DNA from: a virus
Reading direction: 5' to 3' (one strand)
IMG/VR virus record: IMGVR_UViG_3300023179_006747
Coordinates: 1-64,000 of that record
DNA length: 64,000 bases
A program made the position numbers and the translations under genes. Of the stretch, positions 11,290 through 27,044 are shown in pieces; within the stretch, counting starts at the first letter, position 1, and every line of letters starts with the position of its first letter. Under the pieces are notes generated by a model, which had not been told where the DNA came from, did not search any database, and saw only the letters and a list, made by a program, of their open reading frames with translations.

Positions 11290-12255
11290 TTGAATATACT
11301 TTGGCCAGACATACATTTAAATCTTACGAAAAATATAGCAAAAGCTTTTAATAAACTAGGCCATACATTAATACTTCCAAGTTCAGATTATATACCAACA
11401 AATTTACCACCAAAACAATTTAATCAATGGGCGTGGAATACAACTTGGACTCAACAAAAAGCTGATCTTGAATTTCAACATAAAAATGTAAAAGTATTAA
11501 ATAAATATCAAATATTAGACCTTAAACCAGAAATAGTATTTATTACGAGTTTTGAAAGTCAATTTGAGATATTAAATGAAATTTGGCCTCACTTAAAAGA
11601 AAAGGGCAAATTAGCTTGTTATAGCGGTAATGATTATTGGGATGGTGCTTATCCATTTTATATTATTAAAAATTATCTATGCGCGGATTATGTTGGATAT
11701 TTTCTTGCTAATAAATATAAAGTAAATCACTTGTACTATAGACCTTGGGTTGATTACGATAGGTGTACTTTTGATGGACCAACAGATGGAAATATAGTTG
11801 GAATTTATATTTCAGAATATGAAAAAAATTTTAATCAAGAATACAAAATAAGCAAAAGTCTTCAAGAAGAAACTCCATATATAGATTATCACTATCATAC
11901 AAATAGTTCTCAAGAAGAATTAACTAAAAGCTTAAAATCAAGTATTGCAACTCAACATATTAAACATCTCGAAGGATATGGAATATCAGTAATTGAAAGT
12001 ATGGCTTGCGGAAGACCAGTTCTTATGCATCGTCAAATGGCTAAAAATAAAAGTTTAATGCAGTGGAGTATTGAAAATACAACAGCCTTATTCTTTGAAA
12101 ACAATTATGAATATATCGCAAAATTAAAAGCATTATACGAAAGCAAAGATTATAGATATTATTTACAAAATATGACAGCTAGTGTTATTCGCCAGATTAT
12201 AGATAATGACAGAGAAACAGAAAAGCTTGGACATTTCCTTAATAATCTAGTATAA
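11290..12255 (+). CDS. Glycosyltransferase, GT4-like
   Basis: First gene of the glycan island. The 321-residue product has a GT-B layout: the N-terminal half begins NILWPDIHLNLTKNIAKAFN with an acceptor-side Rossmann pattern, and the C-terminal half carries LEGYGISVIESMACGRPVL (near residue 230), the donor-binding E-x7-E-type motif of GT4 enzymes. It is shorter than most GT4 proteins (usually 350-400 residues). Translation appears to start at TTG 11290, placed 6 nt after TATAAT. No signal peptide. Donor and acceptor unknown. Confidence 0.75.
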   Translation: MNILWPDIHLNLTKNIAKAFNKLGHTLILPSSDYIPTNLPPKQFNQWAWNTTWTQQKADLEFQHKNVKVLNKYQILDLKPEIVFITSFESQFEILNEIWPHLKEKGKLACYSGNDYWDGAYPFYIIKNYLCADYVGYFLANKYKVNHLYYRPWVDYDRCTFDGPTDGNIVGIYISEYEKNFNQEYKISKSLQEETPYIDYHYHTNSSQEELTKSLKSSIATQHIKHLEGYGISVIESMACGRPVLMHRQMAKNKSLMQWSIENTTALFFENNYEYIAKLKALYESKDYRYYLQNMTASVIRQIIDNDRETEKLGHFLNNLV

Positions 12256-12256
12256 T
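12227..12256 (+). promoter_or_regulatory. Sigma-70-type promoter within the glycan island
   Basis: TTGGAC (12227-12232), 18 nt, TATAAT (12251-12256), then 8 nt to GTG 12265. It lies in the end of the preceding gene. Confidence 0.55.
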
Positions 12257-12264
12257 TTTAAATA

Positions 12265-13101
12265 GTGAAAATCTGGCTCTGTGGTATTACCCAAAACGAG
12301 AAGCAGAATATTGACGATATGACTAAAGACATATATCAATATTTTGATGGGTTAATTTTTGTAGATGGTGGATCAACAGATGGTACGCTAGAAGTATTAA
12401 ATGCAAGAAAAGGCCAAGGAAAGATTATAAATCGAGAATGGTCAAATGACCATGATCTTCAAATGAACGGCTTCCTAAGAGCAAATGTAATGCAAAATGG
12501 CGATTGGTTCATTATTCGCGATAGCTGTGAAAGATTAGATATAGATTGGGTGAAGAATTTGCGTAATTTTATAGAAAATTTCTTAGAAAAGAATAAATTA
12601 AATAGCTGCGTTGACAGACAAAAAGCTTTTCTTGTTAAATATTTTGATGATATGATATTTCAAGGAAGCCCACATTGGGGTTTAAGTGGTATGAGAGGCG
12701 GATATATTGATCTTTATGAATACTATGCAAAAAATCAAAAGATGTTTGCATGGGAAGAAAGGCCATCTCAAAGAAAGCACTATATTGATAGTGATATGAA
12801 GTATTACTTTATTTATGGAAGATCAAATCATTGCGTTCTTCATTATTATGATAATGGCAAAACTCCAGAAAAATATCAACAACAAGAAAGTATAAGGCAA
12901 GCATTTAGATCTTTTTGTGAGACTTTAGGGATAAAATTCAATTTAGAGTCATTAAAAGAATACTGGCGAAATAATACTATCAATGATAATATGAAATTCT
13001 TTATTAATAATGAAAGACTCATAAGAAGATTTTATAGATTAAATATTTTAAATCATTCATTAGAGCAAATTGATTCATCAGAGGAATGGAGACTAGAATG
13101 A
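12265..13101 (+). CDS. Glycosyltransferase family 2-like
   Basis: A 278-residue GT-A fold enzyme. The start resembles GT2: KIWLCGITQNEKQNIDDMT followed by DGLIFVDGGSTDGTLEVL (residues 28-45), the strand and loop that hold the nucleotide. The later segment DWFIIRDSCERLD takes the place of the DxD metal site. The remaining part (GSPHWGLSGMRGGYIDLYEY) is unlike common GT2 members, so acceptor specificity is unknown. It starts with GTG 8 nt after a TATAAT box and overlaps the next gene with ATGA. Confidence 0.72.
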   Translation: MKIWLCGITQNEKQNIDDMTKDIYQYFDGLIFVDGGSTDGTLEVLNARKGQGKIINREWSNDHDLQMNGFLRANVMQNGDWFIIRDSCERLDIDWVKNLRNFIENFLEKNKLNSCVDRQKAFLVKYFDDMIFQGSPHWGLSGMRGGYIDLYEYYAKNQKMFAWEERPSQRKHYIDSDMKYYFIYGRSNHCVLHYYDNGKTPEKYQQQESIRQAFRSFCETLGIKFNLESLKEYWRNNTINDNMKFFINNERLIRRFYRLNILNHSLEQIDSSEEWRLE

Positions 13102-13997
13102 AATTAATAGATTGCTTCATGTATTTTAATGAAAAAGATATTGCATATCTTAGAATAAAAGAATTATATGATATTGTTGATTACTTTGTCATCAATGAAG
13201 CCACAAAGACTCATCAAGGCCAAGATAAAGAATTATCCTTTTGGAAAGATGATAGACTACAAGAATTCAAAGATAAGATCATCTACACACCAATAGAACT
13301 AGATGGAAGATTTGACGTTTTAATGCCAAAGTTTTTTCCAGATGCAAAGATTGGCGCAAAAGAGCACGAACAAAGAATAAGACTTTTTGAACAAATTGAA
13401 CCATTAAACTTAGACAATTTAGATACAATAATGATTTCAGATTGCGATGAAATTCCTAATAAAAATATATTTCAAGATATGATTAAGTATCCAATCGTTG
13501 CGCTTAATCAAATGTTTTTTGTTCATTACATTAATGTTTATACAAATAAAAATGTTACTGGAACAGTAGCTTGTAAATACGAAGGATTAAAATATTTAAA
13601 TACACTATGTTTTGGAATGGGTCTTCAAATTTTAAGAAGAGATAAAGATTTTATGCCAAGAATAGAAAATGGTGGATGGCACTATTCTTATATGGGTGGA
13701 GCAAAATCAGTTAGTCAAAAAGTAGTATCAACTTATGATGGCAATTTGAACTCTCAATGGAAAACAGAAGCAGCTGCCCAAAAATTAATTGATGAAAGTA
13801 TTAAAAATAAACAAAGCCCTTTTTCTCAAGAGCCAATTTCTATTTTAGATTTTAAATGTGCTACAATAGCTGACTTAAACTTCATAACAGCAAAAGAAGG
13901 TGGGTGGCAGAAATCATCAGCAAGATGCCAATTGCATCCAAAAATAATAGAATTAGACTTTAATAGAGATTTTGAAAATTTAAAATATAATAAATAA
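13098..13997 (+). CDS. Glycosyltransferase family 17-like (GlcNAc-transferase type)
   Basis: Resembles GT17, whose eukaryotic member adds the bisecting beta-1,4-GlcNAc of N-glycans. The 299-residue protein (start at the ATG in ATGA overlapping the previous stop) shows the family's order: KLIDCFMYFNEKDIAYLRIK with E for the glutamate after FN, VINEATKTHQG near 47, EHEQRIRLFE near 96, MISDCDEIPN near 116 with the DxD-like metal site, and GGWHYSYMGG near 195. Phages and marine bacteria are known to carry GT17 members. Acceptor unknown. Confidence 0.78.
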   Translation: MKLIDCFMYFNEKDIAYLRIKELYDIVDYFVINEATKTHQGQDKELSFWKDDRLQEFKDKIIYTPIELDGRFDVLMPKFFPDAKIGAKEHEQRIRLFEQIEPLNLDNLDTIMISDCDEIPNKNIFQDMIKYPIVALNQMFFVHYINVYTNKNVTGTVACKYEGLKYLNTLCFGMGLQILRRDKDFMPRIENGGWHYSYMGGAKSVSQKVVSTYDGNLNSQWKTEAAAQKLIDESIKNKQSPFSQEPISILDFKCATIADLNFITAKEGGWQKSSARCQLHPKIIELDFNRDFENLKYNK

Positions 13998-13998
13998 C

Positions 13999-14697
13999 AT
14001 GAATAATCCTTTTGATTTTTTTGATAGAATATATTGCATTAATCTTCTAGAAAGAGTAGATAAATGGCAACAATGTTTGGAAGAATTTAAAAAACTTGGA
14101 ATAGAAAATAAAGTGATTAGATTTAATGCAATTAAATTTATTGGTGAATTGCCAGAACAACTTAGATGGATTAATATTAGAGCTTGTGGATGTACAGCAT
14201 CTCATAGAGAAATTATAAAAATTTGTCATAATGAAAATGTCAAAAATGTATTAGTTTTAGAAGATGATGTAGAATTCCATAATGATCCAATCAAAAATTT
14301 AAGTTTATCAATAAATGAATTAAAAGATAAAAGTTGGGATATATTATATCTTGGAATGAATGTGACAGATGAAAAATTTAAACAACCTTTAGAAAGAATT
14401 AGCCCTAATTTACTAAGAATTAAAAGTGCATTGACTACGCATGCTATAGCATATAATAATTCTTCTTTTAAACCAATTTTAGAATATATACCAGAAGGAT
14501 TAGAAATAATTAATTGGCAAGCAAGAAATGAATCTTATGATGGATTTTTTATGAGGCATTTTTTAAGCCAAAATAAAGCATTTTGCACGAATGAATATTT
14601 GGCTACTCAAAGAGATAGTTTTTCAGACATTAATCTAGGGAATGCAACTTACGGGAAAGCTATTATGGAAAATTTTTATAAAATGAGACCATTATGA
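13999..14697 (+). CDS. Glycosyltransferase family 25 (LPS/collagen galactosyltransferase type)
   Basis: GT25 enzymes are usually beta-galactosyltransferases acting on lipooligosaccharide or, in eukaryotes, collagen. The 232-residue protein has the typical opening IYCINLLERVDKWQQCLEEF (residues 10-29), GCTASHREIIK near 57, and VLVLEDDVEFHNDP near 78 carrying the metal-binding acidic triad. The C-terminus includes TTHAIAYNNSSF, the usual acceptor-side segment. Length matches bacterial LOS transferases. It overlaps the next gene by 4 nt in the same operon. Confidence 0.85.
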   Translation: MNNPFDFFDRIYCINLLERVDKWQQCLEEFKKLGIENKVIRFNAIKFIGELPEQLRWINIRACGCTASHREIIKICHNENVKNVLVLEDDVEFHNDPIKNLSLSINELKDKSWDILYLGMNVTDEKFKQPLERISPNLLRIKSALTTHAIAYNNSSFKPILEYIPEGLEIINWQARNESYDGFFMRHFLSQNKAFCTNEYLATQRDSFSDINLGNATYGKAIMENFYKMRPL

Positions 14698-15503
14698 TAA
14701 CATTTTTTCAATTAGGCAAATATGGAGCAATTGGTAATCAACTTTTTCAATATGCTACATTATATTCAATAGGTAAAATAAATAATTATACAATTAAAAT
14801 TCCAAAAACTGAAGAACATTTTGATGAAGGAACAAACAGAATCCAACATTATTTTTTAAATTGTTTTGATAACATATTTGCAGAAATATTAACGGAAGAA
14901 GATAAAAAATTAATAAAATATAAAGCGCACGATGAAAATGCTATATCTTATAATCAAAATATGTTTAATATACCAGACTTTACAACATTAGAAGGATATT
15001 TTCAATCATATAAATATTTTATTGGTTTTGAACAAGATTTAAAAAAGCAATTTCAATTTAAAAAATCTATAATAAACTCTATAAATGCAAAGTATAATAT
15101 AAATTATAAAAATTTTTCTTCTGTACATTTAAGATATGGAGATTACGCGCATAGGCAAAATTATCATCCAATTATGGATAAAGATTACTATAAAAAAGCC
15201 TTTGAATTGCTAGACTCCTCAAACTATCTCGTATTTTCAGACAGCATAGAATATGCGAAAGTAATCTTTAATGATTTTAAAAATATTAATTTTATATTTG
15301 TAGAAAATAATCACGCATTTGAAGATATGTATCTTATGTCGGTATGTAAAGATAATATTTTAGCTAATAGCAGTTTTTCTTGGTGGGCGGCATGGCTTAA
15401 TGAAAATAATAAAGTAATAGCTCCAAAAAATTGGCTTGGCCCTGCTTATTATGGAAGATGGAATATAGAAGACTTAATACCAAAAGAATGGATTATCATA
15501 TGA
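14694..15503 (+). CDS. Glycosyltransferase family 11 (alpha-1,2-fucosyltransferase type)
   Basis: Transfers fucose from GDP-fucose to galactose in the family's known members. The 269-residue protein has GAIGNQLFQYATLYSIGKI (residues 10-28), the GDP-fucose-binding SVHLRYGDYA near 142, FSDSIEYA near 180, and NSSFSWWAAWLNENN near 227, which are the conserved GT11 motifs in order. It is immediately followed by a GT10 fucosyltransferase gene (ATGA overlap), and GDP-mannose 4,6-dehydratase, the first step to GDP-fucose, is encoded at 24.9 kb. Confidence 0.88.
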   Translation: MITFFQLGKYGAIGNQLFQYATLYSIGKINNYTIKIPKTEEHFDEGTNRIQHYFLNCFDNIFAEILTEEDKKLIKYKAHDENAISYNQNMFNIPDFTTLEGYFQSYKYFIGFEQDLKKQFQFKKSIINSINAKYNINYKNFSSVHLRYGDYAHRQNYHPIMDKDYYKKAFELLDSSNYLVFSDSIEYAKVIFNDFKNINFIFVENNHAFEDMYLMSVCKDNILANSSFSWWAAWLNENNKVIAPKNWLGPAYYGRWNIEDLIPKEWIII

Positions 15504-16357
15504 ATAAAAAAATATTTAACTTATTAGACAATAACTTCGCGCACGACAAATATGTTGTAGCAGGGATAGATTCAAAATATATCGAATGGGACAGATCATT
15601 AAAAGATTTAGAAAATCCATTCTTTTATTCGCATATAAGAATGCGCGATATTATTAGTAAAAATACAGACAAAGAAAAATCTTACGGACTTATTGTTGAA
15701 TCAAGAGCAATAGAAGGACAAATGTATGATTTTATTGAACCAATACTTCATAGATTTAATAAAGTATTCACTCATAATTCTGCATTTTTAAAAAAATATG
15801 AAAATTGTAAGTGGATTCCAGGAGGAGGAATATGGGTCGAAGGTAGAGAAGGCGCGCCACATGGAGAAGGACAAATGAAGATTTTTGATAAAACTAAATT
15901 ATGCTCAATGGTATCATCAAACAAACAAATGTGTTATTTACATCTAGTAAGATTACAAATTATGGATTATTTAAAAGACAACAATAAGATAGATAAATTT
16001 TTTGGTGGAGGTGGCCCAGGAGACGCGGGATGGCTTCCAATTTTTAGGACATTAAAAGATTATATGTTTTCTATAGTAATAGAAAATTTTGTAGACGATT
16101 TATATTTTACAGAAAAAATATTAAATTGTTTTGCTACAGGAGTTATACCAATATATCTCGGAGCAAAAAACATACATACAGTTTTTAATAAAGATGGAAT
16201 AATGCAATTTGATTCACTTGAAAAATTAAATGAAATTTTAAATAAAATCTCTCCAGAAGAATATTACTCTAGAATAAATGCAGTTAAAGAAAATTATGAA
16301 AAATGCTTACAATTTAAATCAATTGAAGATTATATTTATCTAAATTATTTATCATGA
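15500..16357 (+). CDS. Glycosyltransferase family 10 (alpha-1,3/4-fucosyltransferase type)
   Basis: Resembles GT10 fucosyltransferases that make Lewis-type antigens. The start (285 residues) is taken at the ATG overlapping the GT11 stop. In the C-terminal half, KDYMFSIVIENFVDDLYFTE (near residue 185) and KILNCFATGVIPIYLGAKNI match the GDP-fucose-binding FSIVxEN...YxTEK and G-x-x-P-x-Y-x-G-A motifs. The preceding SMVSSNKQMCYLHLVRLQIM also fits. No membrane anchor is present, as in bacterial FutA-like enzymes. Regiospecificity cannot be read. Confidence 0.82.
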   Translation: MNKKIFNLLDNNFAHDKYVVAGIDSKYIEWDRSLKDLENPFFYSHIRMRDIISKNTDKEKSYGLIVESRAIEGQMYDFIEPILHRFNKVFTHNSAFLKKYENCKWIPGGGIWVEGREGAPHGEGQMKIFDKTKLCSMVSSNKQMCYLHLVRLQIMDYLKDNNKIDKFFGGGGPGDAGWLPIFRTLKDYMFSIVIENFVDDLYFTEKILNCFATGVIPIYLGAKNIHTVFNKDGIMQFDSLEKLNEILNKISPEEYYSRINAVKENYEKCLQFKSIEDYIYLNYLS

Positions 16358-17220
16358 AAAACATTTTAATACTAGGAAAAGGTTATATAGGATCAGGTTT
16401 ATTTGAGTATATAAAAATAAAAGAAGATATTTCTGCAGAAATTAAATCAAAAAGTGAACTTAATTATCTAGATTATTCTATATTAGACAATTATATATTT
16501 AATGCAAAAGCGAAAGGGCTAGATTACATAATAAATTGCGTCGGATACACTGGGAGGCCTAATGTTGAAGGTTGTGAATATGACAAAGAGACATGCTGGA
16601 AATATAATGTAAATATTCCAATACTTTTTACTGAAATAGCTAATCATTACGATATACCAATTATTCACGTAAGCAGTGGATGTATATATACTGGATATGA
16701 GAAAGATTATAGCGAAGAAGATGAACCTAATTTTGGTTTATATAATAATAGTAGTTTTTATAGTAAAACAAAACATGCTTGCGAAATTTCTTTAAAAAAT
16801 ACTAATAGTTATATATTTAGGATAAGAATGCCGTTCTCCTATAAATCTTCTAATAGAAATTATATTAATAAAATATTACAATATGATAATTTAATAAGTT
16901 ATAAAAATAGCTTAACATGCGTTGAGGATTTAAATGAATTCGTATATAAATTTATAAATTTAAAAGATAAACCTAAATTTGGAATATTTAATGTTTTGAA
17001 TTCTGGATCAGCCACGGCAAAAGATGTTGTTAATATTTTACAAAAATATAAATTAGAAAACAAAAACTGGAAATTTTTAGATCAAAAAGAAATGAATTTT
17101 AAAACGCCAAGAAGTAATTGTGTTTTGTCTGTACAGAAAATTGAAAAATTAAAATTAGAATTACCTAACGTAATAATTAGTTTAGAAAATAGTATTAAAA
17201 ATTTTCATAATAATTTATGA
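16354..17220 (+). CDS. NAD(P)-dependent sugar-nucleotide epimerase/reductase (extended SDR)
   Basis: A 288-residue extended short-chain dehydrogenase. The Rossmann start NILILGKGYIGSGLFEYI (residues 3-20) binds NAD(P). INCVGYTGRPNVEGCE, then HVSSGCIYTG with the catalytic Ser, and Y-S-K-T-K near 137 carry the active site. The nearest types are RmlD (dTDP-4-keto-rhamnose reductase) and GDP-fucose synthase-like reductases. With GMD in the same island, formation of a GDP-6-deoxyhexose is attractive, but the substrate is unproven. It sits between the GT10 and GT15 genes with 4-nt overlaps on both sides. Confidence 0.8.
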   Translation: MKNILILGKGYIGSGLFEYIKIKEDISAEIKSKSELNYLDYSILDNYIFNAKAKGLDYIINCVGYTGRPNVEGCEYDKETCWKYNVNIPILFTEIANHYDIPIIHVSSGCIYTGYEKDYSEEDEPNFGLYNNSSFYSKTKHACEISLKNTNSYIFRIRMPFSYKSSNRNYINKILQYDNLISYKNSLTCVEDLNEFVYKFINLKDKPKFGIFNVLNSGSATAKDVVNILQKYKLENKNWKFLDQKEMNFKTPRSNCVLSVQKIEKLKLELPNVIISLENSIKNFHNNL

Positions 17221-17978
17221 ATAATAAGATTATTTATCTTTTAAGAGATTCACCATTAGATTTAAAACTTTTTGATAAAAGTATAGAACTTTTAAAAATT
17301 AATTTTTTACCTACAAATAATTATCCAATAGTAATTTTTCATGAAAATATTCCAATAGATATTTTTGAAAATATCCAAAACAAACATCAAATTAAATTCA
17401 ATATACAAAAAATAAACTTTGAAATACCTAAATTTTTAGATGAACAAAAAGTTCCCGCAGAAGTCATGACGAAATCAATCGGATATAGACATATGTGCAG
17501 ATTTTATGCTGGAGAAATGTATTTTCAAGAAATACTTAAAGATACAAATTATTATTTAAGACTAGATAATGACTCTTTTTTCACTGAACCCATGCAATAT
17601 GATTTATTTAAGCATATGGAAGATAATAATTATATCTATGGATATAATGCTACTCTAGGAGATAATCCGCAAGTTACAGTAGGTCTTTTAGAAGCATGCC
17701 AAGTATATAGCCAAACAAGAAAAGTTATAAAAAATATTAACGATATACCATTTCCTCAAGTATATTATACAAATTTTGAAATTGCAAAATTTAATTGGTT
17801 TTTAACTCCAGAATATTTAGATTTCTATAATTTTATAGATATGTTAGGAGGAATTTACCAATACAGATGGGGAGACCATATAATTAAATTTTTAGGCTTA
17901 TCAATGCTTTTAGAAGATAAATATAAGCATCATTTTAAAAATTTACCATATGTGCATGGCAATTTTTTTAACTATTAA
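17217..17978 (+). CDS. Glycosyltransferase family 15-like (alpha-1,2-mannosyltransferase type)
   Basis: Strongly patterned like fungal KRE2/MNT1 mannosyltransferases, which extend O- and N-linked mannose chains. In order: SIGYRHMCRFYAGEMYFQE (near residue 85), YYLRLDNDSFFTEPMQYDLF (near 113) with the Asp cluster, NFEIAKFNWFLTPEYLDFY (near 184) including the nucleophile-candidate Glu, and GGIYQYRWGDHIIKFLGLSM (near 208), then HVHGNFF-like PYVHGNFF at the end. The 253-residue length covers the catalytic domain only; no signal anchor is present. GT15 is rare outside fungi, apart from scattered viruses and bacteria. Confidence 0.8.
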   Translation: MNNKIIYLLRDSPLDLKLFDKSIELLKINFLPTNNYPIVIFHENIPIDIFENIQNKHQIKFNIQKINFEIPKFLDEQKVPAEVMTKSIGYRHMCRFYAGEMYFQEILKDTNYYLRLDNDSFFTEPMQYDLFKHMEDNNYIYGYNATLGDNPQVTVGLLEACQVYSQTRKVIKNINDIPFPQVYYTNFEIAKFNWFLTPEYLDFYNFIDMLGGIYQYRWGDHIIKFLGLSMLLEDKYKHHFKNLPYVHGNFFNY

Positions 17979-18847
17979 TGAATGTTATTTTATTTAATTT
18001 TGGTAAAAACCATTTATATTTCCAAGATTGTATAAATCAGATTCTTAATTATAATCACGATATAAAAATATATTTTATTGGAAATGAAAATCAATTTATA
18101 AATGGCGCAAATTTTATAAACATTAATGAATTCAATAATCAAGATCTTATAAAAGAATTTAAAAATATTTCATTTTATGAAGATGATGGAAATCCATTAT
18201 GGAGAGCATCAATGGCTAGATTTTTTTATATTGAATCTTTTATTAAACAAAATAATCTTGTAGATGTATTTCATTTTGATAATGACGTTATGATATATGA
18301 AAATTTTAATAAAATTTTAAATAGTAAAAATGCTACAGATGAAAATATTATTACTCCAACGAATGAATTTAATTTAACCTGTGGAATGATGTATATTAAA
18401 AATGATAATTCTATTTCAAAATTAAACGAAAAACTTTTCGAAAAATTAAAACTTGGCGTGGGCGGTATATACAACAACTATCCAAAAAGAGGTTCGAGTT
18501 TAGATCCATTTATGGTTAATGAAATGACCATACTTAAAATTATTCAAGAAGAAAATAAAAACTTATTATCTTTATTTCCTATACTACCCACTGATTTAAA
18601 TTTTAATCAATACGGAATTTGTTTTGATCCTTCTTCTTGGGGTCAATGTATTGGAGGAACAAATTGTGGACACGGGCCAGGTTGGGCTGGAGAACATCAT
18701 TATATTGGTAGAGAAATATTAAAAAATAAATATAAAATATTATTTGAAAATAAAAAACCAGAAATATTAGATTTAAATATAAATATTAAATATCCTTTAT
18801 TCAATCTGCATATACATTCTAAAAATTTAAATATATTTTTAAGTTAG
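17978..18847 (+). CDS. Putative glycosyltransferase (GT-A-like)
   Basis: A 289-residue protein without a clear family. It looks like a GT-A enzyme: the N-terminal strand NVILFNFGKNHLYFQDCINQ, a DVFHFDNDVMIYENF segment near residue 95 as a DxD metal site, and a TCGMMYIKNDNS strand near 136 as seen on the acceptor side. The C-terminal CGHGPGWAGEHHYIGRE has several His and Gly that may close the donor site. Starts directly at the stop of the GT15 gene. The substrate is unknown. Confidence 0.6.
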   Translation: MNVILFNFGKNHLYFQDCINQILNYNHDIKIYFIGNENQFINGANFININEFNNQDLIKEFKNISFYEDDGNPLWRASMARFFYIESFIKQNNLVDVFHFDNDVMIYENFNKILNSKNATDENIITPTNEFNLTCGMMYIKNDNSISKLNEKLFEKLKLGVGGIYNNYPKRGSSLDPFMVNEMTILKIIQEENKNLLSLFPILPTDLNFNQYGICFDPSSWGQCIGGTNCGHGPGWAGEHHYIGREILKNKYKILFENKKPEILDLNINIKYPLFNLHIHSKNLNIFLS

Positions 18848-19481: not shown

Positions 19482-20362
19482 TGGAACTAATTTGCGGAGA
19501 TAAATTTCAACAGTTGGCAGATATATCAATATTGATTGATAATGAAGATAATTACAGATCAGGAATTATACAAAATCAATTAAAAAATATAAATACAAAT
19601 CTACATATATTCAATAATGATAATAAAAATTATATTCCAGATAGCATAAAATATGCAAAAAAAATCTTTGTATATACAGATATTTTAAATTTTTTCTTTA
19701 AAAATATTCTTCCTTTTATACAAACAAAATTTATTTTAATAAGTCATAACAGCGATTTAGGGGTATCCTCTGAATATGAAAGATTTTTAAATTCAGATAA
19801 GATTATAAAATGGTATTGTCAAAACGCCGCATTTAATCATGAAAAGCTTATTCCAATACCTATAGGAATCGCGAATAAGCAATGGGAACATGGAAATGAA
19901 GAAATTTTTAAAAAAAATTATAATGATTTTAAAGATAAAAATAAAGCGTTTGGATGTTTTAATATAACTACAAATAGTTCATTTAGAACGCGAATTTGGG
20001 AAATTTGTAGTCAAAGTAAAATATGTGATATGTACTCAAAATTAGATTTTCAAACTTTTGTCAAAATTATGTCTAAATATAAATATACGCTTTGCCCAAT
20101 AGGAAATCCAGTCGCAGGATCAGCAGGAGATAATCATAAAGTATATGAATCATTATATGTAAATAGTATACCTATAGTTTTTGAGAATCAAAAAATAATT
20201 TATGATAATATATATAAATATTTGCCAGTAATATTTGCGCAAGATGTTAATATCCTGTCAGATGAAATTAAATTAGAAGAAGAATTCTTAAAAATAAAAG
20301 AAAAGTCTAAAGAAAAAATTGATTTCAATTATTGGAAAAATATAATAAATAATAACTTATAA
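19481..20362 (+). CDS. Exostosin-like glycosyltransferase (GT47-type)
   Basis: A 293-residue GT-B-like enzyme. The first half is divergent, but the donor-binding end shows SKYKYTLCPIGNPVAGSAGD (near residue 203) followed by KVYESLYVNSIPIVFENQKI, matching the exostosin signature in which an acidic residue precedes the A/V-x-x-G-x-I-P strand. KLIPIPIGIANKQWEHGN near 125 is another shared segment. GT47 members transfer GlcA, Gal or Xyl in eukaryotes. Donor here is unknown. No membrane anchor. Confidence 0.62.
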   Translation: MELICGDKFQQLADISILIDNEDNYRSGIIQNQLKNINTNLHIFNNDNKNYIPDSIKYAKKIFVYTDILNFFFKNILPFIQTKFILISHNSDLGVSSEYERFLNSDKIIKWYCQNAAFNHEKLIPIPIGIANKQWEHGNEEIFKKNYNDFKDKNKAFGCFNITTNSSFRTRIWEICSQSKICDMYSKLDFQTFVKIMSKYKYTLCPIGNPVAGSAGDNHKVYESLYVNSIPIVFENQKIIYDNIYKYLPVIFAQDVNILSDEIKLEEEFLKIKEKSKEKIDFNYWKNIINNNL

Positions 20363-20366
20363 ATTT

Positions 20367-20672
20367 ATGGTAACGATAAATTACAAAGGCAGGACCGCAA
20401 ATCATTTTATACAGCATATTGTTGGGCATTTTCTTGCTAGGAAATATAATTTAAAGTTGACACAAGAGTCTCCAATTAATAATCCAACTATAAAATTTAA
20501 TGATATAAATAATAGCCAAATAGGGCGAAATAGGATTATTGTTGATGATACCAACTGGCTGGATATAGTTTTTAATAATTTTAAATATGATTCACCATCT
20601 TTTTATTTAGATGGATTTTTTAATAATAGAAAATTTTTTGAATTTTTTGAAGAAGATATCAAAAACATATGA
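20367..20672 (+). CDS. N-terminal half of a GT11-like glycosyltransferase (split gene, part 1)
   Basis: A 101-residue protein that starts like GT11 or related GDP-sugar transferases: GRTANHFIQHIVGHFLARKYNL (shortened here: GRTANHFIQH at residue 8) corresponds to GxxGNxLFQ. It ends where such enzymes continue into the nucleotide-binding half. The next gene, overlapping by 4 nt in a different frame, supplies the missing half. The two products may work as a heterodimer, or the gene may have been broken by a frameshift. Confidence 0.5.
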   Translation: MVTINYKGRTANHFIQHIVGHFLARKYNLKLTQESPINNPTIKFNDINNSQIGRNRIIVDDTNWLDIVFNNFKYDSPSFYLDGFFNNRKFFEFFEEDIKNI

Positions 20673-21136
20673 TTATACAATATGATCATTCAATAAATCA
20701 AAATGACGTTATAGTTCATTATAGAATTGGAGATCTGACGCAAATACCTAGATGTATTCTTCCATTAGAATATTATTGTGAAGCTTTAGAGTCTATACAA
20801 TTTAATCAAGGCTATATTACTTCAGACACACTAGAGCATGAATTATGTCAAAAATTAATAAAAAAATATAATTTAATTCCACTTGCTTTGAGTCCTTCGG
20901 ATACAATTGCCTATTGCAAAAATTTTAATAAAATTATCCTTTCAGAAGGAGGCTTTTCTTGGTCGATTGGCTTTCTAAGTAAAGCTAAAGAAATTATCTG
21001 TAATCAAAGAGAGTTGATTTGGCATGGGGATATATTTTTTGAAAAATGGAAAAAATTAAGATGGGATTATTCACCAGATGCAATTTACGATAAAGTTCAA
21101 TTAAAAGAATATAAACCAATAAAATTAAATGACTAA
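20669..21136 (+). CDS. C-terminal half of a GT11-like glycosyltransferase (split gene, part 2)
   Basis: A 155-residue protein beginning with a short strand and then DVIVHYRIGDLTQIPRC (near residue 13), the counterpart of the GDP-binding H-x-R-x-G-D segment of GT11. GYITSDTLEHELCQ and KIILSEGGFSWSIGFLSKAK (near 90) replace the S-x-S-S-F-S-W motif. It lacks the N-terminal lobe, which is encoded just upstream. Overlaps the acetyltransferase gene by 8 nt. Confidence 0.5.
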   Translation: MIIQYDHSINQNDVIVHYRIGDLTQIPRCILPLEYYCEALESIQFNQGYITSDTLEHELCQKLIKKYNLIPLALSPSDTIAYCKNFNKIILSEGGFSWSIGFLSKAKEIICNQRELIWHGDIFFEKWKKLRWDYSPDAIYDKVQLKEYKPIKLND

Positions 21137-21542
21137 TGTAATACTAGGCAAAAATACAGTTATTTCAAACTATACAAATCTATATGGATGTAAGTTAGGA
21201 GATGAAGTATTTATTGGCCCATTTGTAGAAATTCAAAAAAATTCATTTATTGGCGATAAAACTAGAATTAGTAGTCATTCTTTTATTTGCGAAGGAGTTG
21301 AGATAGGAATAAATTGCTTTATTGGACATGGAGTAATGTTTACCAATGATAAATTTACTGAAAATAAAAATGATTGGATTTTAAGAAAAACTAAAATTGG
21401 CAATAACGTGAGGATAGGAAGTAATTCTACAATTTTACCTGTAAATATCGGAGATAATGTAGTCATTGGAGCAGGATCAGTAGTTACAAAAGATATTCCA
21501 TCAAATACAATTGTTTATGGTAATCCAGCGAGAATTAAATAA
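21129..21542 (+). CDS. Hexapeptide-repeat acyltransferase (WbpD-like)
   Basis: A 137-residue left-handed beta-helix protein made of hexapeptide repeats such as VFIGPFVEI, IGINCFIGHGVMFTND, IGNNVRIGSNSTILP and IGDNVVIGAGSVVTKDI, ending VYGNPARIK. This is the form of sugar N- or O-acetyltransferases that use acetyl-CoA, trimeric in known cases. The gene order acetyltransferase, dehydrogenase, aminotransferase matches the WbpD-WbpB-WbpE set that makes 2,3-diacetamido sugars in Pseudomonas. The role as a 3-N-acetyltransferase is inferred from context. Starts before the previous stop and ends 1 nt over the next start. Confidence 0.85.
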   Translation: MTNVILGKNTVISNYTNLYGCKLGDEVFIGPFVEIQKNSFIGDKTRISSHSFICEGVEIGINCFIGHGVMFTNDKFTENKNDWILRKTKIGNNVRIGSNSTILPVNIGDNVVIGAGSVVTKDIPSNTIVYGNPARIK

Positions 21543-22414
21543 TGAAAAAAATAGGATTAATAGGATTTGGATATTGGGGTAAAATAATTTATAAGAATTT
21601 AAAAGAATTGGGTTATTCAATTACTATAACTGATAAATTTTCTATTGATAAAAGTTTAATAAAAAATGATGATAAGATAGTTGATTCATATATGGAAATT
21701 AAAGATGTAGATAAAGTTTTTGTTGTTACTCCTTGTGAATCTCATGAAAAAATAGTGTCCTATTTCCTAAATAAGAAAATAGATGTATTTTGCGAAAAAC
21801 CGCTAACTTTAAATTTTGATCAATCTAAGAATTTATTTAATATTGCTCGTAAAAATAATGCAAAATTATTTGTTGATTGGATATTTATATTTAATGATGC
21901 AATTAATTACATTAAACACTTATTAGAAGCAAATACTCATGGTAAACTATTAAATATATCTATGAGGCGATTAAATAAAGGGCCAATTAGAAACGATGTA
22001 AATGCAAGATATGATCTGACGTCGCATGATTTATCAATTTTAATTTATTTAATAGATATAGAGATTAAAAGAAATTTTTTTTATGACTATCGTAAATTAT
22101 CAACTTCTTTTAAAGAAGATAGTTGCATAGGAGTTTTAGAATTTAAAAACAATATAACATGCACAATTGAATCCAGCTGGGAACATCCAATAAAAGACAG
22201 ACAATGCATATTTGAATTTGAAAATGGTATTTTAATTTGGGACGATATAAGTCAAACAATAAAAGTTAATAACATTGAAATAAACTTTCCGAAAACAGAA
22301 TCTCCACTGAAAAAATCATTGAAAACTTTTATAAATTCTACTTTTGACACCAATCAGATAAAACGGATAACACTTGAAGTCGCTAAAATTTTAGAAAAAA
22401 AATATGAAAATTAA
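21542..22414 (+). CDS. Gfo/Idh/MocA-family sugar dehydrogenase (WbpB-like)
   Basis: A 290-residue NAD(P)-dependent oxidoreductase. KKIGLIGFGYWGKIIYKNLK at the N-terminus is the nucleotide-binding G-x-G-x-x-G, and VDVFCEKPLTLNFDQSK-like sequence near residue 82 (FCEKPLTLN) gives the conserved EKP with the catalytic Lys. The C-terminal alpha/beta domain continues with CTIESSWEHP. Next to an aminotransferase it likely oxidises a sugar C3 hydroxyl to a ketone before transamination, as WbpB does. Slightly shorter than usual (about 320-340). Confidence 0.83.
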   Translation: MKKIGLIGFGYWGKIIYKNLKELGYSITITDKFSIDKSLIKNDDKIVDSYMEIKDVDKVFVVTPCESHEKIVSYFLNKKIDVFCEKPLTLNFDQSKNLFNIARKNNAKLFVDWIFIFNDAINYIKHLLEANTHGKLLNISMRRLNKGPIRNDVNARYDLTSHDLSILIYLIDIEIKRNFFYDYRKLSTSFKEDSCIGVLEFKNNITCTIESSWEHPIKDRQCIFEFENGILIWDDISQTIKVNNIEINFPKTESPLKKSLKTFINSTFDTNQIKRITLEVAKILEKKYEN

Positions 22415-23522
22415 ATTTAACGACTTAAATGCTCAATGGAAAATAATAAAAGAGTCTTGCGAAAAAGATATAAATCTATTATTTCAAAATTCAGATTTTA
22501 TCTTAGGAGAAAAAGTATTAGACTTTGAAAGTAATTTTTCTAAATTTTGTAATGTAAAATATTCAATAGGAGTTTCTTCAGGCACAGATGCCATAAAATT
22601 AGCTGGGTTATCATTAATCGAAGATACTTTATCAAAAAATATTTTGATATTTATTCCAGTTAATACATTTATTGCGACATATATTGGCTTAAAAGATGCT
22701 TTTCCAAATGCAAAATTTATTTTAATAGATTGCGACGATTTTTATCAAATAGATACAAATATTTTAGAAGAACAAGTCTTAAAAAATCGAAAAGATTTTA
22801 ATCATTGCATCATTGCTCCTGTTCATCTTTATGGATATACGGCGAATATGAGTAAAATAAAACAAATATCTAAAAAAAATAATTGTTTTATATTAGAAGA
22901 TTCATCTCAAGCCCATGGCGCAATTGATGATGAAAATAATTTAGCTGGATCAACGGGAGATGTGTCAGCGTTTTCTTTATATCCTGGCAAAAATTTAGGC
23001 GCAGCAGGAGACGCGGGCATAATCACTACAAATAATTTAAAAATTTTTGAAAAAATTAAATTACTTAGAAATTACGGATCAGTAAAAAAATATAGTCACG
23101 AAATCTTTGGATTTAATTATAGATTAGATACAATGCAAGCCATTATTTTAAATCAAAAATTAAAGTTTTTAAATGAATGGAATTCAAAAAGAAGATTGAT
23201 CATAAATGAGATTTGTCTGAATGTAAGTAATCAAAAAATTATTATGCCGCAGACGCCAAATTATTGCAAAATACCAGCACATCATATTTTTCCAGTAAGA
23301 GTAAAAGACAGAGAAAATTTTATTAATTATTTAAATAATAATTTAATTGAGAACGGAATTCATTATCCTGTCCCACTAAATAAACTAGACTTTATAAAAG
23401 CAGATTTTATATCCAATAATAAAAGCAATATTTTTTGCGATGAATTAGTCAGTTTACCAATACATCCATTTATTTCCCATCTAGAAATAGAAAAAATTAT
23501 TAGTATTTTACAAAAATATTAA
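22404..23522 (+). CDS. PLP-dependent sugar aminotransferase (DegT/DnrJ/EryC1/StrS, WbpE-like)
   Basis: Adds an amino group to a keto-sugar nucleotide using glutamate. The 372-residue protein shows the family order: GVSSGTDAIKLAGLSLI (near 56) for phosphate binding, ILEDSSQAHGA with Asp166 near the pyridine nitrogen, and FSLYPGKNLGAAGDAG (near 190) with Lys196 as the Schiff-base lysine. Typical length. Overlaps the dehydrogenase gene by 11 nt. The three genes 21129-23522 form a compact cassette for an amino sugar. Confidence 0.9.
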   Translation: MKIKFNDLNAQWKIIKESCEKDINLLFQNSDFILGEKVLDFESNFSKFCNVKYSIGVSSGTDAIKLAGLSLIEDTLSKNILIFIPVNTFIATYIGLKDAFPNAKFILIDCDDFYQIDTNILEEQVLKNRKDFNHCIIAPVHLYGYTANMSKIKQISKKNNCFILEDSSQAHGAIDDENNLAGSTGDVSAFSLYPGKNLGAAGDAGIITTNNLKIFEKIKLLRNYGSVKKYSHEIFGFNYRLDTMQAIILNQKLKFLNEWNSKRRLIINEICLNVSNQKIIMPQTPNYCKIPAHHIFPVRVKDRENFINYLNNNLIENGIHYPVPLNKLDFIKADFISNNKSNIFCDELVSLPIHPFISHLEIEKIISILQKY

Positions 23523-23533: not shown

Positions 23534-24022
23534 ATGAGCGACTATTTTAGTCATCAACAATATCTTTTAAAAGAATTAAACTCTTTAAATAATAATTCTA
23601 TTGTTTTAGAATTAGGGATTGGCGAAGGAAGTTCTTCTTTAATGTATGATTTTTGCAAAAATAATCCATACTCAAAAGTATATGCTTTTGAATCCGATCA
23701 AATTTGGCTAGATAAAATTAAACCTAAATATAGTTTAGACAATTATATTATAGAGTATATTGATGATTGGAATAATATAAATAAATATATTAATTATAAA
23801 AAAATTGATTTAGCCTTCATTGATCAAGCTCCATGGGAAGCAAGAGTAGCTACTATTAATTTATTAAAAAATAATACTAATATTTTTGTTGTTCATGATT
23901 ATGATTATTATAATATAGGCTATCCAAGCCTTAGAGTTAATAATCAAGAATCTTGGTGGGGCAAAATTATTCTAAAGAATTTATTCTTGAAGATAATTAC
24001 GAACTGTTACCACCAACTTTAG
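23534..24022 (+). CDS. Methyltransferase-like protein, probably frameshifted near its 3' end
   Basis: The first 140 residues look like a class I SAM-binding fold: IVLELGIGEGSSSLMYDFCK (motif I, near residue 23), VYAFESDQIW (motif II), and IDLAFIDQAPWEARVATIN (motif IV). FVVHDYDYYN near 115 resembles the other methyltransferase in the island. After NNQESWWGK the frame runs into a poor tail and stops at 24022. In the -1 frame a protein-like continuation (SKEFILEDNYELLPPTLV) runs to TAA 24037-24039. One missing base in the A run at 23963-23966 would join them. Confidence 0.6.
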   Translation: MSDYFSHQQYLLKELNSLNNNSIVLELGIGEGSSSLMYDFCKNNPYSKVYAFESDQIWLDKIKPKYSLDNYIIEYIDDWNNINKYINYKKIDLAFIDQAPWEARVATINLLKNNTNIFVVHDYDYYNIGYPSLRVNNQESWWGKIILKNLFLKIITNCYHQL

Positions 24023-24051: not shown

Positions 24052-24840
24052 ATGAAAAATGCAACAATTTTAGTCACAGACTTAAATCATCTAAAATATA
24101 TAAAATATAATATCAACAATATTCGCCAGAATATAAAAAATACAGATATTGTAATACTTACAAATGAAAAAGATTTTCCATTAATAAATGAAGAATTAAA
24201 AGAAAAAAATGTATTTATATATTCCGTAGAAAATAAAAATAGTCCCTATTATTTAAAATATCATATTTTTGACAAATATTTTAAAAAATGGGATAATCTG
24301 TTATATTTAGATTGCGACACAATGATTTTAGAAAACGCATCTAAGCTATTTGATTTATTGAACAACGAGAATGAAATGTTTGTAGACTTTGAAGAGCATA
24401 AGATATTTGATTTTTTTAATTTATCTAACGAAGAAATAGAACAAAATCAAGACCAATTCAAAAGTTTATTAAATGAAAAAAATATTAATAAAATTGGATT
24501 TAATAGTGGTATACTTTTGTATAAATCTTCACTTATATCGGAAGAGAATGCGGATAAACTAAAATCTTATCATTTAAAATATGCGGATATTAATAAACAT
24601 GGCAAAGAACAAAATATATTATGGAATCTTAAGCCAGGAACAGACCAACCAATTATAAATTTAGTTTTTTTAGAAAAATGCAAAAAAGTACCAAATAACT
24701 ATTTTAGTTATTGGGGAAGATATAATTCAAATAGTCTAATTTTACATTTTTGTCGTTGGCATGCCCCATGGTTTAATGAAGAATTTAATGAAAAAATAAA
24801 TAAAAGATACGTAGATTATTTCAATGAAAATAAGAATTGA
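24052..24840 (+). CDS. Glycosyltransferase family 8-like
   Basis: A 262-residue retaining GT-A enzyme by appearance. LYLDCDTMILENASKLFDLL (near residue 83) carries the DxD metal site in the typical GT8 context, KIGFNSGILLYKSSLIS (near 144) is the conserved NSG strand, DQPIINLVFLEKC (near 200) the D-Q motif, and LHFCRWHAPWF near the end supplies the metal-binding His. Members include glycogenin and LPS galactosyl/glucosyltransferases. Donor here unknown. It stands in the glycan island just before the GDP-mannose dehydratase. Confidence 0.75.
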   Translation: MKNATILVTDLNHLKYIKYNINNIRQNIKNTDIVILTNEKDFPLINEELKEKNVFIYSVENKNSPYYLKYHIFDKYFKKWDNLLYLDCDTMILENASKLFDLLNNENEMFVDFEEHKIFDFFNLSNEEIEQNQDQFKSLLNEKNINKIGFNSGILLYKSSLISEENADKLKSYHLKYADINKHGKEQNILWNLKPGTDQPIINLVFLEKCKKVPNNYFSYWGRYNSNSLILHFCRWHAPWFNEEFNEKINKRYVDYFNENKN

Positions 24841-24864: not shown

Positions 24865-24878
24865 AAAAAAAGATAAAA

Positions 24879-26024
24879 ATGAACCAAAACATAAAAGAAA
24901 CATATTATGGTAAAAAAATAGATACATCAAATATTTTAAATATTGAAGATGCAAGTAGGCTAATCAATGGTAAAAAAACTATAGTAGTTACTGGAGTTAC
25001 TGGCCAAGATGGAAGTCATATGATTGATTTTTTGCTTAAAAACACAGATTATCTTATTTTTGGCGGAGTAAGAAGATTGAGCGTTTATAATCACGAAAAT
25101 ATTAGACATATAAAATCTGATAGATTTTATCTCATTAATTTTGATTTAACTGATTCTCACGCTATAGCTAGAACAGTAGAGAAATTACAGCCAGATTATT
25201 TTATTAATTTTGCAGCACAAAGTTTTGTAGCTAGTAGTTGGGATTTTTCTAGACAGACTTGGCATACCAACTCAACGGCAGTTTTAGATATTCTAGAAGC
25301 AATTAGATTATACAAACCGTCTTGTAGACTTTATCAAGCTGGTTCTAGTGAAGAATTTGGAAATGTACAATACTCTCCGCAAGACGAAAATCATCCTTTA
25401 AAACCAAGAAGCCCCTACGGAGCAAGTAAAGCCGCGTCTAGACAATTAGTAAAAGTTTATAGAGAATCTTATGGAATATACGCAATTCAAGGTTGGCTAT
25501 TTAATCATGAAGGCATAAGAAGAGGCGAAGAATTCGTTACCAGAAAAATTACTAAAAATGTAGCTCGTATTTTTAATGCTATTAAAAATAAAGAAGATTT
25601 TAGTCCTCTTGAGTTAGGCAATATCGAAGCTAAACGAGATTGGAGCGATGCAGAAGATTTTGTTGAAGGAGTCTGGATGATGTTGAATCAAGATAAATAT
25701 AATCCTAATTATTCTGGAGAACCAAAAGAATATATATTCTCCTCAAATGAAACTCATACAATTAAAGAATTTGCAGAAAAAGCATTTAAATATGCGGGAA
25801 TTGAGGGAGAATGGGTCGGAGAAGGTGAACATATTATGTTTATAAATAAAGATAAAAAAACATTAATTCAAATTAATCCTAAATTTTATAGGCCAGCAGA
25901 AGTAGAATTATTACTTGGAAATTCAAATAAAGCAAGAGAAGAATTGAATTGGAAACCTAAAATTTCATTTGACAACCTTGTTGAAAAAATGGTAAAATGG
26001 GATATTGAAAAATACAAATCATAA
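24879..26024 (+). CDS. gmd: GDP-mannose 4,6-dehydratase
   Basis: Converts GDP-mannose to GDP-4-keto-6-deoxymannose, the precursor of GDP-fucose, GDP-rhamnose and GDP-perosamine. The 381-residue extended SDR has VVTGVTGQDGSHMIDFLL (near residue 36) for NADP binding, NFAAQSFVASSW (near 110), YQAGSSEEFGNVQYSP (near 150) with the catalytic Ser/Glu pair, RSPYGASKAASRQLVKVYR (near 175) with Tyr-x3-Lys, and FNHEGIRRGEEFVTRKI, the GDP-mannose dehydratase hallmark. YRPAEVELLLGNSNKA near the end is also typical. Some 30 extra N-terminal residues are unusual. Together with two fucosyltransferases it implies a fucose-type sugar. Confidence 0.95.
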   Translation: MNQNIKETYYGKKIDTSNILNIEDASRLINGKKTIVVTGVTGQDGSHMIDFLLKNTDYLIFGGVRRLSVYNHENIRHIKSDRFYLINFDLTDSHAIARTVEKLQPDYFINFAAQSFVASSWDFSRQTWHTNSTAVLDILEAIRLYKPSCRLYQAGSSEEFGNVQYSPQDENHPLKPRSPYGASKAASRQLVKVYRESYGIYAIQGWLFNHEGIRRGEEFVTRKITKNVARIFNAIKNKEDFSPLELGNIEAKRDWSDAEDFVEGVWMMLNQDKYNPNYSGEPKEYIFSSNETHTIKEFAEKAFKYAGIEGEWVGEGEHIMFINKDKKTLIQINPKFYRPAEVELLLGNSNKAREELNWKPKISFDNLVEKMVKWDIEKYKS

Positions 26025-26340
26025 ACTTTGCCAATTTATAGTTAAAAAATATGTCAGAGGAAATATTAATTGGCCAAGAGAAATTAAAATAGCACAAAAA
26101 TTAGTGAAAAGGTTTAATTCTTTTGATTTTTGGGATAATCTTAAAGACTTAGGAAGTCCACCTCCATCATTAGCTTGGTTTCTTAAAGCAGAAGGTAAAG
26201 CATTTATATTAAAAGAATATGAAAAATTTAACTTAGATTTTAATAAACAGGAAATAAAAATAGAAACTAATAAAATAGGTGAAGATAAAAATATTTGCTT
26301 AAAACCCAAAAGTTTAATAGAATTTATAAGAAAAAAATGA
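26005..26340 (+). CDS. Hypothetical protein, 111 residues
   Basis: Begins at TTG 26005 inside the end of gmd (20-nt overlap), since no later start would keep the conserved-looking basic N-terminus. The protein is basic, with FIVKKYVRGNINWPREIKIA and KDLGSPPPSLAWFLKAEGKA, and probably helical. No motif or family is recognised. It is translationally coupled to gmd and to the following glycosyltransferase (ATGA overlap). The start choice is uncertain. Confidence 0.5.
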   Translation: MKNTNHKLCQFIVKKYVRGNINWPREIKIAQKLVKRFNSFDFWDNLKDLGSPPPSLAWFLKAEGKAFILKEYEKFNLDFNKQEIKIETNKIGEDKNICLKPKSLIEFIRKK

Positions 26341-27044
26341 AAAATATAGCACTTACATCAGCAATAAATTACAATGATTATTTAAAAATTTTTAAACAGC
26401 ATAATTATAATTATTTTGATGAAATACATGTTGTTACAGATACAAATGAAGATAAAGAATTAGAGGAAATATGCAAAGATTCTAAATTTAATTTAATAAA
26501 AACTGATAAATTTTACACCTTTGAAGGTCAATCTGCAAAGTTTAATCGTGGAGCAGCGTATACATATGCTATGTCTTTATTTAAAAATCCAGAAATTATT
26601 ACAATTATAGATGCTGATACTTTATTGCCAGAAAGTTACAATAATATATTTACAGAATTAAAATCTAAAGATAAATTTGATCAAATGATAAGTGCCAGAA
26701 GATTTGTTTTAGAAACATATCAAGACTATTCAAAAGTATTTTTAGAAAAAGACCCAAACTATAAATTAGAAATGAGAAGTTTTGATTGGGGTTGGGGATA
26801 TTTACAAATTTTTCATGCAAAAAGTAAATGGTTAAAAAATGGATTAATATATCCAGAAAATTATGATTGTGCAGTATCAGATTTTATGTTTAGAAGACAA
26901 TTTGGATGGCATATTTTTAGACAAGATACAGAAGAACATTATTGGGATCCAGAGGCGCAAGTATGCTTAAGGCAATTTCCAGTATATGGTCTAGGTCCAA
27001 ATAATATTAATTCGAGAGGTCGCCGTGCGCCAGCATTTAAATAA
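26337..27044 (+). CDS. Putative glycosyltransferase (GT-A-like)
   Basis: A 235-residue protein. The start is taken at the ATG of ATGA, overlapping the upstream stop. It opens with a strand and loop (NIALTSAINYNDYLKIF), then DEIHVVTDTNEDKELEEICK, FNRGAAYTYAMSLFKNPEII and IIDADTLLPESYNNIF (near residue 84), where DAD is the likely metal site. FDWGWGYLQIFHAKSKWL and the acidic SDFMFRRQFG form the expected acceptor side. The layout is that of a compact GT2-like catalytic domain. Last gene of the glycan island. Confidence 0.62.
   Translation: MKNIALTSAINYNDYLKIFKQHNYNYFDEIHVVTDTNEDKELEEICKDSKFNLIKTDKFYTFEGQSAKFNRGAAYTYAMSLFKNPEIITIIDADTLLPESYNNIFTELKSKDKFDQMISARRFVLETYQDYSKVFLEKDPNYKLEMRSFDWGWGYLQIFHAKSKWLKNGLIYPENYDCAVSDFMFRRQFGWHIFRQDTEEHYWDPEAQVCLRQFPVYGLGPNNINSRGRRAPAFK

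Follow-up and report, generated by a model that had tools for sequence, protein, structure and literature searches.

Clusters of glycosyltransferase (GT) genes are already known in cyanophages and pelagimyophages. Here we describe a comparable GT island, at positions 11290–27044 of IMG/VR virus record IMGVR_UViG_3300023179_006747 (G000), which is a contig of a tailed phage seen in metagenome records only. The window, i.e., the whole stretch of DNA analyzed, has 64,000 nucleotides (nt) and is nearly the whole of this 64,111-base record. An earlier note, made from the sequence alone (the original prediction), had recognized the island. We find that its ends persist in related phages while its content changes, and that five of its GTs are under purifying selection; the island may build a glycan on a phage protein.

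The nearest cluster that we have found in a cultured phage is that of Synechococcus phage S-SCSM1 (MK867354). As in the window, one plus-strand run contains methyltransferases, GDP-mannose 4,6-dehydratase (GMD) and about nine genes annotated as GTs, among them an alpha-1,2-fucosyltransferase. Unlike the window, S-SCSM1 belongs to the Kyanoviridae and has a GDP-L-fucose synthase and a GDP-mannose epimerase, and its GMD is only 46% identical to ours. Its authors read the GT cluster as cell-wall modification (PMC9602691). The island shares the defining features of a phage GT cluster, several GTs and sugar-nucleotide enzymes in one run.

A hypervariable cluster that includes GTs, known as the host recognition cluster, is also described in pelagimyophages, in the structural region of T4-like genomes (PMC7029224). 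This cluster resembles the island in its hypervariability and in having GTs between conserved modules. It differs in that it is found in myoviruses, between VrlC and gp14 and together with tail fibres, while the island belongs to a siphophage-type genome, ends at GMD and UvsX, and has an unrecognized protein as its neighbour. The island lies between the gene of this 498 amino acid (aa) protein and UvsX, which is not the pelagimyophage position (VrlC and gp14 were not searched for).

Mimiviruses and chloroviruses have clade-specific glycogene clusters. The core oligosaccharide of chloroviruses is conserved, and R135, which codes for a fibril component, is taken to belong to the mimivirus cluster (PMC9614988). 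These are eukaryotic viruses with known glycans, while ours is a bacteriophage known from its genes alone. Glycans are reported on capsid and tail tube subunits of mycobacteriophage virions (Freeman et al. 2023, cited in PMC12619734), while here about twelve GTs with sugar-nucleotide enzymes are known from genes. GTs and a hypervariable region are also described in prasinoviruses (PMC12906663), four GT groups in the core genome of moraphages (PMC12619734), and GMD and GTs in lake cyanophages (PMC10611076). It is common to interpret the GT clusters of phages as genes acting on the host cell wall, with no direct test of this role. We have found no published description of this island among titles and the beginnings of abstracts, a search which leaves out most subscription journals.

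Conservation of the island in related phages

All 21 open reading frames (ORFs) of the island are on the plus strand at the predicted places. Family assignments were judged against Pfam gathering scores, and PHROGs and PDB matches were used additionally. The island begins with genes for proteins of predicted GT4 type (11290–12255, +; PF00534, 1.3e-6, 28.5 bits against a cut-off of 26.4), GT2 type (12265–13101, +; PF00535, 1.1e-4, 22.7 against 23.3, just below the cut-off; PHROG 13126, a GT family, 3.2e-11), GT17 type (13086–13997, +; PF04724, 7.8e-16) and GT25 type (13999–14697, +; PF01755, 3.1e-9). Two putative members of fucosyltransferase families follow. The GT11-type protein (14694–15503, +) has matches to PF01531 (2.1e-22) and PHROG 2644 (1.5e-64), an HxRxGD motif and no PDB sequence match at 0.01. 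The GT10-type protein (15500–16357, +; listed ORF start 15431, ATG at 15500) matches PF00852 (2.4e-10) and PDB 9s6a (7.1e-8).

A scan for GT4 gave 26 loci, and a GT4 profile scan of IMG/VR gave 37 loci with 38–88% identity. We have compared the island with 18 distinct close loci chosen by GT4 (22 less four duplicates); identities are medians. As none of these loci extends more than 10 kb past GT4, the absence there of genes beyond about 22 kb means little. A gradient is found. GT4 (86%, present by construction), GT2 (89%) and GT17 (85%) appear in all 18 loci, always in the same order. GT25 and GT11 are each found in 16 (58% and 67%), GT10 in 13 (30%), the reductase gene at 16354 in three (71%), and GT15, the gene at 17978 and the Methyltransf_24 gene in none. 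Further on, the GT47-like gene is present in 3 of the 18 loci (25%) and GT8 in six (46%). Median ratios of nonsynonymous to synonymous substitution rates (dN/dS) are 0.10 for GT4, 0.07 for GT2 and 0.11 for GT17 (n = 18 each), and 0.28 for GT25 and 0.18 for GT11 (n = 16 each): these five GTs are under purifying selection. The homologues in relatives and these medians (0.07–0.28) place the island beyond chance. Our reading of the gradient is that enzymes for an inner core are kept while those for outer sugars are exchanged; gene order may mirror the order of sugar addition.

The other end of the island was compared by means of the recombinase gene that follows it (UvsX-like, 27084–28226, +; PHROG 97, 8.7e-33), which opens a conserved replication block. 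Scanning IMG/VR with UvsX, we obtained 177 relatives and kept the best 80 (85–97% identity); 52 of the 80 loci have more than 3 kb before UvsX, and many are short. By tblastn, a conserved 111-aa protein (26005–26340, +) is matched in 74 of the 80 loci, GMD in 64, the individual GTs of the window in between 0 and 15 loci, and the GT2_4-like gene at 26337 in eight. A GMD family match is present in 35 of the 36 records searched, and the exception (G005) is a record that breaks off at UvsX. From 20 records we extracted the stretch preceding UvsX, to a length of at most 20 kb. GMD is found in all 20 stretches, the 111-aa protein as a complete ORF in only three, probably cut elsewhere, as the stretches stop at the first base of UvsX. 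GT15, the gene at 17978, the Methyltransf_24 gene, both ORFs of a split GT, the hexapeptide and GFO genes and the gene at 23534 are in none of these longer stretches, and DegT is in four of them with 23–25% identity.

When the ORFs of the window and of these 20 relatives are clustered together with their flanking ORFs, 215 clusters result, 127 of them with a single member. The last 12 kb contain 252 plus-strand ORFs of at least 100 aa, for which 129 cluster representatives were scanned with profiles; among the families listed (25 of 86), Methyltransf_24 appears 10 times, GT2 seven, Epimerase six and RmlD five. The site before UvsX thus holds sugar-related genes across relatives, with differing content. 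An example is the record containing L082 and L127. Its flanks are nearly those of the window (identity is 98%, 94% and 100% for the genes at 5009, 6541 and 7570, respectively, 97% for UvsX, 82–95% for small ORFs and 57% for an HNH-like ORF), while the only best-hit labels in its island are GT4 (53%), the GT10-like gene (41%) and GMD (87%). The comparison of related loci that the original prediction had proposed shows that GMD near UvsX recurs and the GTs differ. That island content changes between relatives while island ends persist had been missed. In the distant loci L124 and L126 (UvsX 47%), GT4 and further genes stand directly after UvsX, with the island on its other side.

A tblastn search of 50,697 phage records gave no match at 1e-5 for either the GT4 or the GT15 protein. 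Pattern scans of IMG/VR with GT15 and with the 498-aa protein also found nothing; the latter is a weak null, as homologues exist beside GT4, and the same caution applies to the former.

Site of assembly

The original prediction argued that the island is not a copied capsule or O-antigen operon, as it saw no flippase, polymerase or membrane anchor. Profiles for a flippase (PF01943) and for lipid-carrier transferases of WbaP type (PF02397) and WecA type (PF00953) have no match in 20 records, including that of the window; the same profiles were matched in 13, 9 and 12 of 14 control genomes. Hydropathy analysis detects no transmembrane-like stretch in any island protein. The flippase and the initiating transferase of a Wzx/Wzy operon are thus not found in these records (a Wzy polymerase was not searched for). 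As regards Gtr-type seroconversion, whose gene set includes the membrane proteins GtrA and GtrB, the observation is limited to the lack of transmembrane-like stretches in the island (GtrA/GtrB profiles were not run). These results support the proposal of soluble synthesis in the cytoplasm, on a soluble acceptor. The part of the proposal which included phage DNA as a target is weakened: PF00303 (thymidylate-synthase type) has no match over the cut-off in the 20 records, and one weak match in G023. The only thymidylate gene seen in the window, at 30444, is ThyX-like by eye. The nulls suggest that the island is neither an O-antigen operon copy nor a system for DNA glucosylation of T4 type, with the reservation that records may be incomplete. 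We presume that the target is a protein, not the host surface or DNA.

The divergent neighbouring protein

A very divergent protein of 498 aa (9754–11250, +; possible ATG at 9769) is found directly before GT4, just outside the limits of the island as first predicted, and it had been overlooked. It may be the acceptor of the glycan. A large divergent protein precedes GT4 in 24 of the 26 loci (20 of 22 without duplicates), either as one protein of 427–786 aa or as a pair of 409–464 and 238–278 aa; in L122 it is cut by the contig end. The protein of the window is matched over half its length in only 4 of the 18 distinct loci, with 22–26% identity, and an alignment of six such proteins, ours included, has 18 invariant columns. 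Judging from these alignments, the neighbour appears to change very fast, beside a GT4 with 82–88% identity. No signal-like hydrophobic start is found on the 498-aa protein.

In 15 of 19 loci the highest GC of the locus is that of the divergent gene or of one of the pair. Within the window, its GC of 0.345 ranks second among the tabulated genes, after that of the major tail tube protein (0.357); high values are also found for a tail assembly gene (0.340) and for the tape measure gene (0.327). Tracts with at least 0.45 Ser/Thr/Pro over 40 residues are present in the divergent proteins of 8 of the 19 loci, against 2 of 332 other ORFs, and the tract of the divergent protein ranks first in 13 of the 19.

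The longest relative examined, G014 (171,916 bases, with repeated ends), codes for a 772-aa mucin-like protein with (TSAPVV)n repeats (85050–87368, or L141:5050–7368); two GT10 matches follow, the first at a distance of 1.7 kb and after two intervening ORFs. A second open frame starts at 167042 and runs off the record end; its richest 60 residues are 72% Ser/Thr/Pro, and a third GT10 match is 5 kb from the record start. Both repeat proteins are rich in Thr/Ser/Pro/Ala, and their N-termini resemble each other in a motif around W-xxx-DFD. A search of 20 records with a degenerate DNA pattern for an N-terminal W...F motif found nothing. Six of the seven long relatives have Ser/Thr/Pro-rich ORFs. 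We considered a mucin-like protein beside GTs as a general rule and dropped it, as the long relatives other than G014 did not repeat this arrangement.

Possible function of the island

We tentatively favour the reading of the island as a phage glycan-assembly module in the host cytoplasm, with an inner core, replaceable outer sugars and a phage protein as acceptor; we are almost evenly divided about it, leaning slightly to doubt. We infer that GMD and the other sugar-nucleotide enzymes would convert nucleotide sugars of the host to 6-deoxy sugars and amino sugars, which soluble GTs would attach one by one to a protein acceptor. GT4, GT2 and GT17 would make a common inner core, GT25, GT11 and GT10 would extend it, and the replaceable middle genes would add phage-specific outer sugars. 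The acceptor would probably be a phage protein ending on the virion, with the 498-aa protein adjoining GT4 as the leading candidate. The glycan could serve for masking from the host or from competitors, or for receptor choice. Going further, island and neighbour could be a single cassette for a diversifying glycoprotein, in which a partly mucin-like protein that evolves fast and is carried on the virion is combined with a line of GTs, the inner core being fixed and the outer sugars swapped by recombination between conserved flanking genes. We consider this version rather unlikely; if true, a bacteriophage would display a changing, self-made glycan coat, comparable to those of chloroviruses or to mimivirus fibrils.

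Several observations weigh against a glycan on this phage protein. The 498-aa protein belongs to no PHROG or Pfam family, and its structure prediction (AlphaFold, 12 aligned sequences) has low confidence (mean pLDDT 47.6); it is only a putative virion protein. The divergent protein is inverted in L102, and such a protein is absent before GT4 in 13 of the 37 loci (L124, L126 and 11 more distant ones). Neighbour type and GT25 allele do not go together: GT25 is 87–90% identical in L110, which has a pair, and L123, with a 724-aa protein, as it is in L103 and L112, which have a protein of the window type. A high GC content does not clearly distinguish virion genes, since tail genes of the window may also be low (J 0.288, minor tail genes at 44451 and 45818 0.301 and 0.185). 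The Ser/Thr/Pro tract of the 498-aa protein reaches 0.40, third (tied) behind two tail proteins. A mucin-like repeat beside GT10 is present only in G014, one of the seven long relatives (in the others GT10 alone was mapped). In addition, records may be incomplete.

The GTs might instead act on the surface glycans of the host during infection, extending or capping its lipopolysaccharide (LPS), its capsule or the sugars on its surface proteins, with export by a host flippase and ligase. Superinfection or progeny losses to debris would thereby be prevented. The GTs of the S-SCSM1 (PMC9602691) and pelagimyophage (PMC7029224) clusters are interpreted in this way by the respective authors. Pfam describes GT25 as an LPS biosynthesis family, and G014 has near its island (60203–63342, or L140:206–3342, −) an autotransporter-repeat protein (TIGR02601) and a pseudopilin-like protein with a prepilin-type start (TIGR02532), which may hint at the host surface. 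We regard this alternative as unlikely, though to be taken seriously: flippase and lipid-carrier transferase are lacking in the 20 records, although the host could supply them, and a large divergent protein without a signal-like start heads the island.

Sugars built on modified bases of phage DNA, as a protection against restriction, are quite improbable. It is true that phage GTs classically glucosylate hydroxymethylated bases (PMC9614988), and that the island adjoins replication genes. The lack of a thymidylate-synthase-type enzyme over the cut-off speaks against it (other modification routes were not searched for), and twelve GTs exceed what DNA glucosylation needs. The families GT15, GT17, GT11 and GT10 are known to act on glycans of proteins and lipids. 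Least probable of all, and indeed very unlikely, is a neutral gene store, in which a recombination hotspot by UvsX would gather polysaccharide genes without a joint product. The many single-member ORF clusters (127 of 215) and a GT11-like gene in two pieces would fit such a store; the low dN/dS of the five GTs tested, the constant order of GT4, GT2 and GT17 in 18 distinct loci and the presence of GMD in 35 of 36 records do not. With so many colinear islands, which share a core, differ outside it and stand by a candidate acceptor, the target of the decoration becomes a testable question.

Other genes of the island

Seven GTs score above the Pfam gathering cut-off (GT4, GT17, GT25, GT11, GT10, GT15 and GT8) and about five are weaker, which agrees with the original prediction of about twelve. 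The assignments to GT2, GT47 and GT2_4 remain below the cut-off. A profile score far above the curated cut-off places the predicted protein at 17217–17978 (+) in GT15, a yeast alpha-mannosyltransferase family (PF01793, 9.8e-32, 111 bits against 25); it matches PDB 1s4n, a yeast-type 2-alpha-mannosyltransferase (2.9e-19), with shared NFE and RWGD stretches. The next gene (17978–18847, +) may code for a GT on the basis of a DxD motif (DND at residue 101), with no GT family match in profile searches. An exostosin-like, possibly GT47 protein (19481–20362, +; PF03016, 6.9e-4, 19.5 bits against 33.4) is below the cut-off. Two ORFs at 20367–20672 and 20669–21136 (together 20367–21136, +) are probably halves of one GT11-like gene, since each matches the same single ORF of G014; PHROG 2644 is matched by the second only (5e-5). 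A GT8-type protein (24052–24840, +; PF01501, 9.3e-9) and a GT2_4-like protein (26337–27044, +; listed ORF start 26295; PF13704, 9.7e-5, 23.2 against 27.5, below the cut-off) complete the set.

The sugar-nucleotide enzymes are confirmed by profiles. A short-chain dehydrogenase/reductase of RmlD type (16354–17220, +) resembles 3,5-epimerase/4-reductases of nucleotide-rhamnose synthesis. Its best PDB match is 4qqr (3.8e-25), which we take to be plant UER1, followed by the UDP-L-rhamnose synthase 7jid (1.3e-18). GT15 and this rhamnose-synthase-like enzyme are thereby placed in a phage, whose lineage recurs in many IMG/VR records. GMD (24879–26024, +; PF16363, 3.1e-104; PDB 2z1m, 1.1e-82) is near the UvsX end and stays below the NCBIfam equivalog cut-off (325 bits against 415). 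No GDP-fucose synthase is named among the matches of island proteins; this enzyme may come from the host, or the GMD product may be put to other use. A hexapeptide-repeat acyltransferase (21129–21542, +; PF00132, 2.1e-21; GlmU is the best PDB match and QdtC is among the matches), a GFO/IDH/MocA dehydrogenase (21542–22414, +; PF01408, 3.4e-13) and a DegT-type sugar aminotransferase (22404–23522, +; PF01041, 2.5e-63; PDB 7b0d, 2e-71; QdtB 3frk, 3.8e-66) suggest a 3-amino sugar because of the matches to QdtB and QdtC; presumably the trio could also be a route of WbpB/E/D type. One of the two predicted methyltransferases is a Methyltransf_24 protein (18885–19481, +; PF13578, 3.3e-7); the other (23534–24022, +) is methyltransferase-like by eye only, with no family match in Pfam or PHROGs. 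The island of a relative (L087:2884–7391, −) has PseI/NeuB-like, acetolactate-synthase-like and AroB-related enzymes, all below the cut-off, which suggest other unusual sugars.

The genes had been described as joined by overlaps and probably expressed together. From the 498-aa ORF to UvsX, with ATG starts at 15500 (GT10) and 26337 (last GT), 13 of the 22 junctions overlap by 1–20 nt, and the other nine are gaps of 1–39 nt. A single transcript is not proved, because promoter-like sites are near chance (162 against 148.4) and two plus-strand terminator-like sites (15630 and 20595) lie inside island genes. Terminator-like sites number 9 against 4.7 (standard deviation 2.5).

Genome setting

The record is AT-rich. 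Its siphophage-type tail module includes the major tail tube protein, the tape measure (51974) and a J-type protein (47323). We had considered 60160–61323 as a major capsid protein, a candidate dropped as its fold matches 8xan (E 1.7e-10) and indicates the major tail tube protein. UvsX, a primase and a ribonucleotide reductase are present; the best phage matches of the helicase are annotated as DnaB-like (about 26% identity), and the polymerase matches DnaE-type records. As G014 is much longer and has repeated ends, the genome may be larger and the window just a part of it. No close relative of the record is present in the phage collection searched. Two UvsX patterns gave no confirmed relative in genome contigs. 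Nine GMD relatives were found there; the nearest, with 65% identity, comes from a metagenome-assembled genome of Woesebacteria, where it lies on a 6-kb contig. Neither search names a host.

GT-like genes (PHROG 2170) are also found outside the island, at 1370–2455 (−) and 38316–40232 (+), with G014 matches of 65 and 67% identity, so that core GTs outside the island may also be present in the lineage. A gene at 5009–6118 resembles IMP dehydrogenase/GMP reductase, below NCBIfam cut-offs, and is 85–98% identical in relatives among the GT4 loci. In G014, L141:2314–3306 is a short adenylosuccinate-synthase-like gene (330 aa), which scores higher with PurA (260 bits) than with PurZ (99.5), all below the cut-off. 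Finally, the window contains a phage transfer-messenger RNA gene at 8711–9099 (Rfam RF00023, 109.6 bits), whose predicted 24-residue tag ends in ...ASVA.

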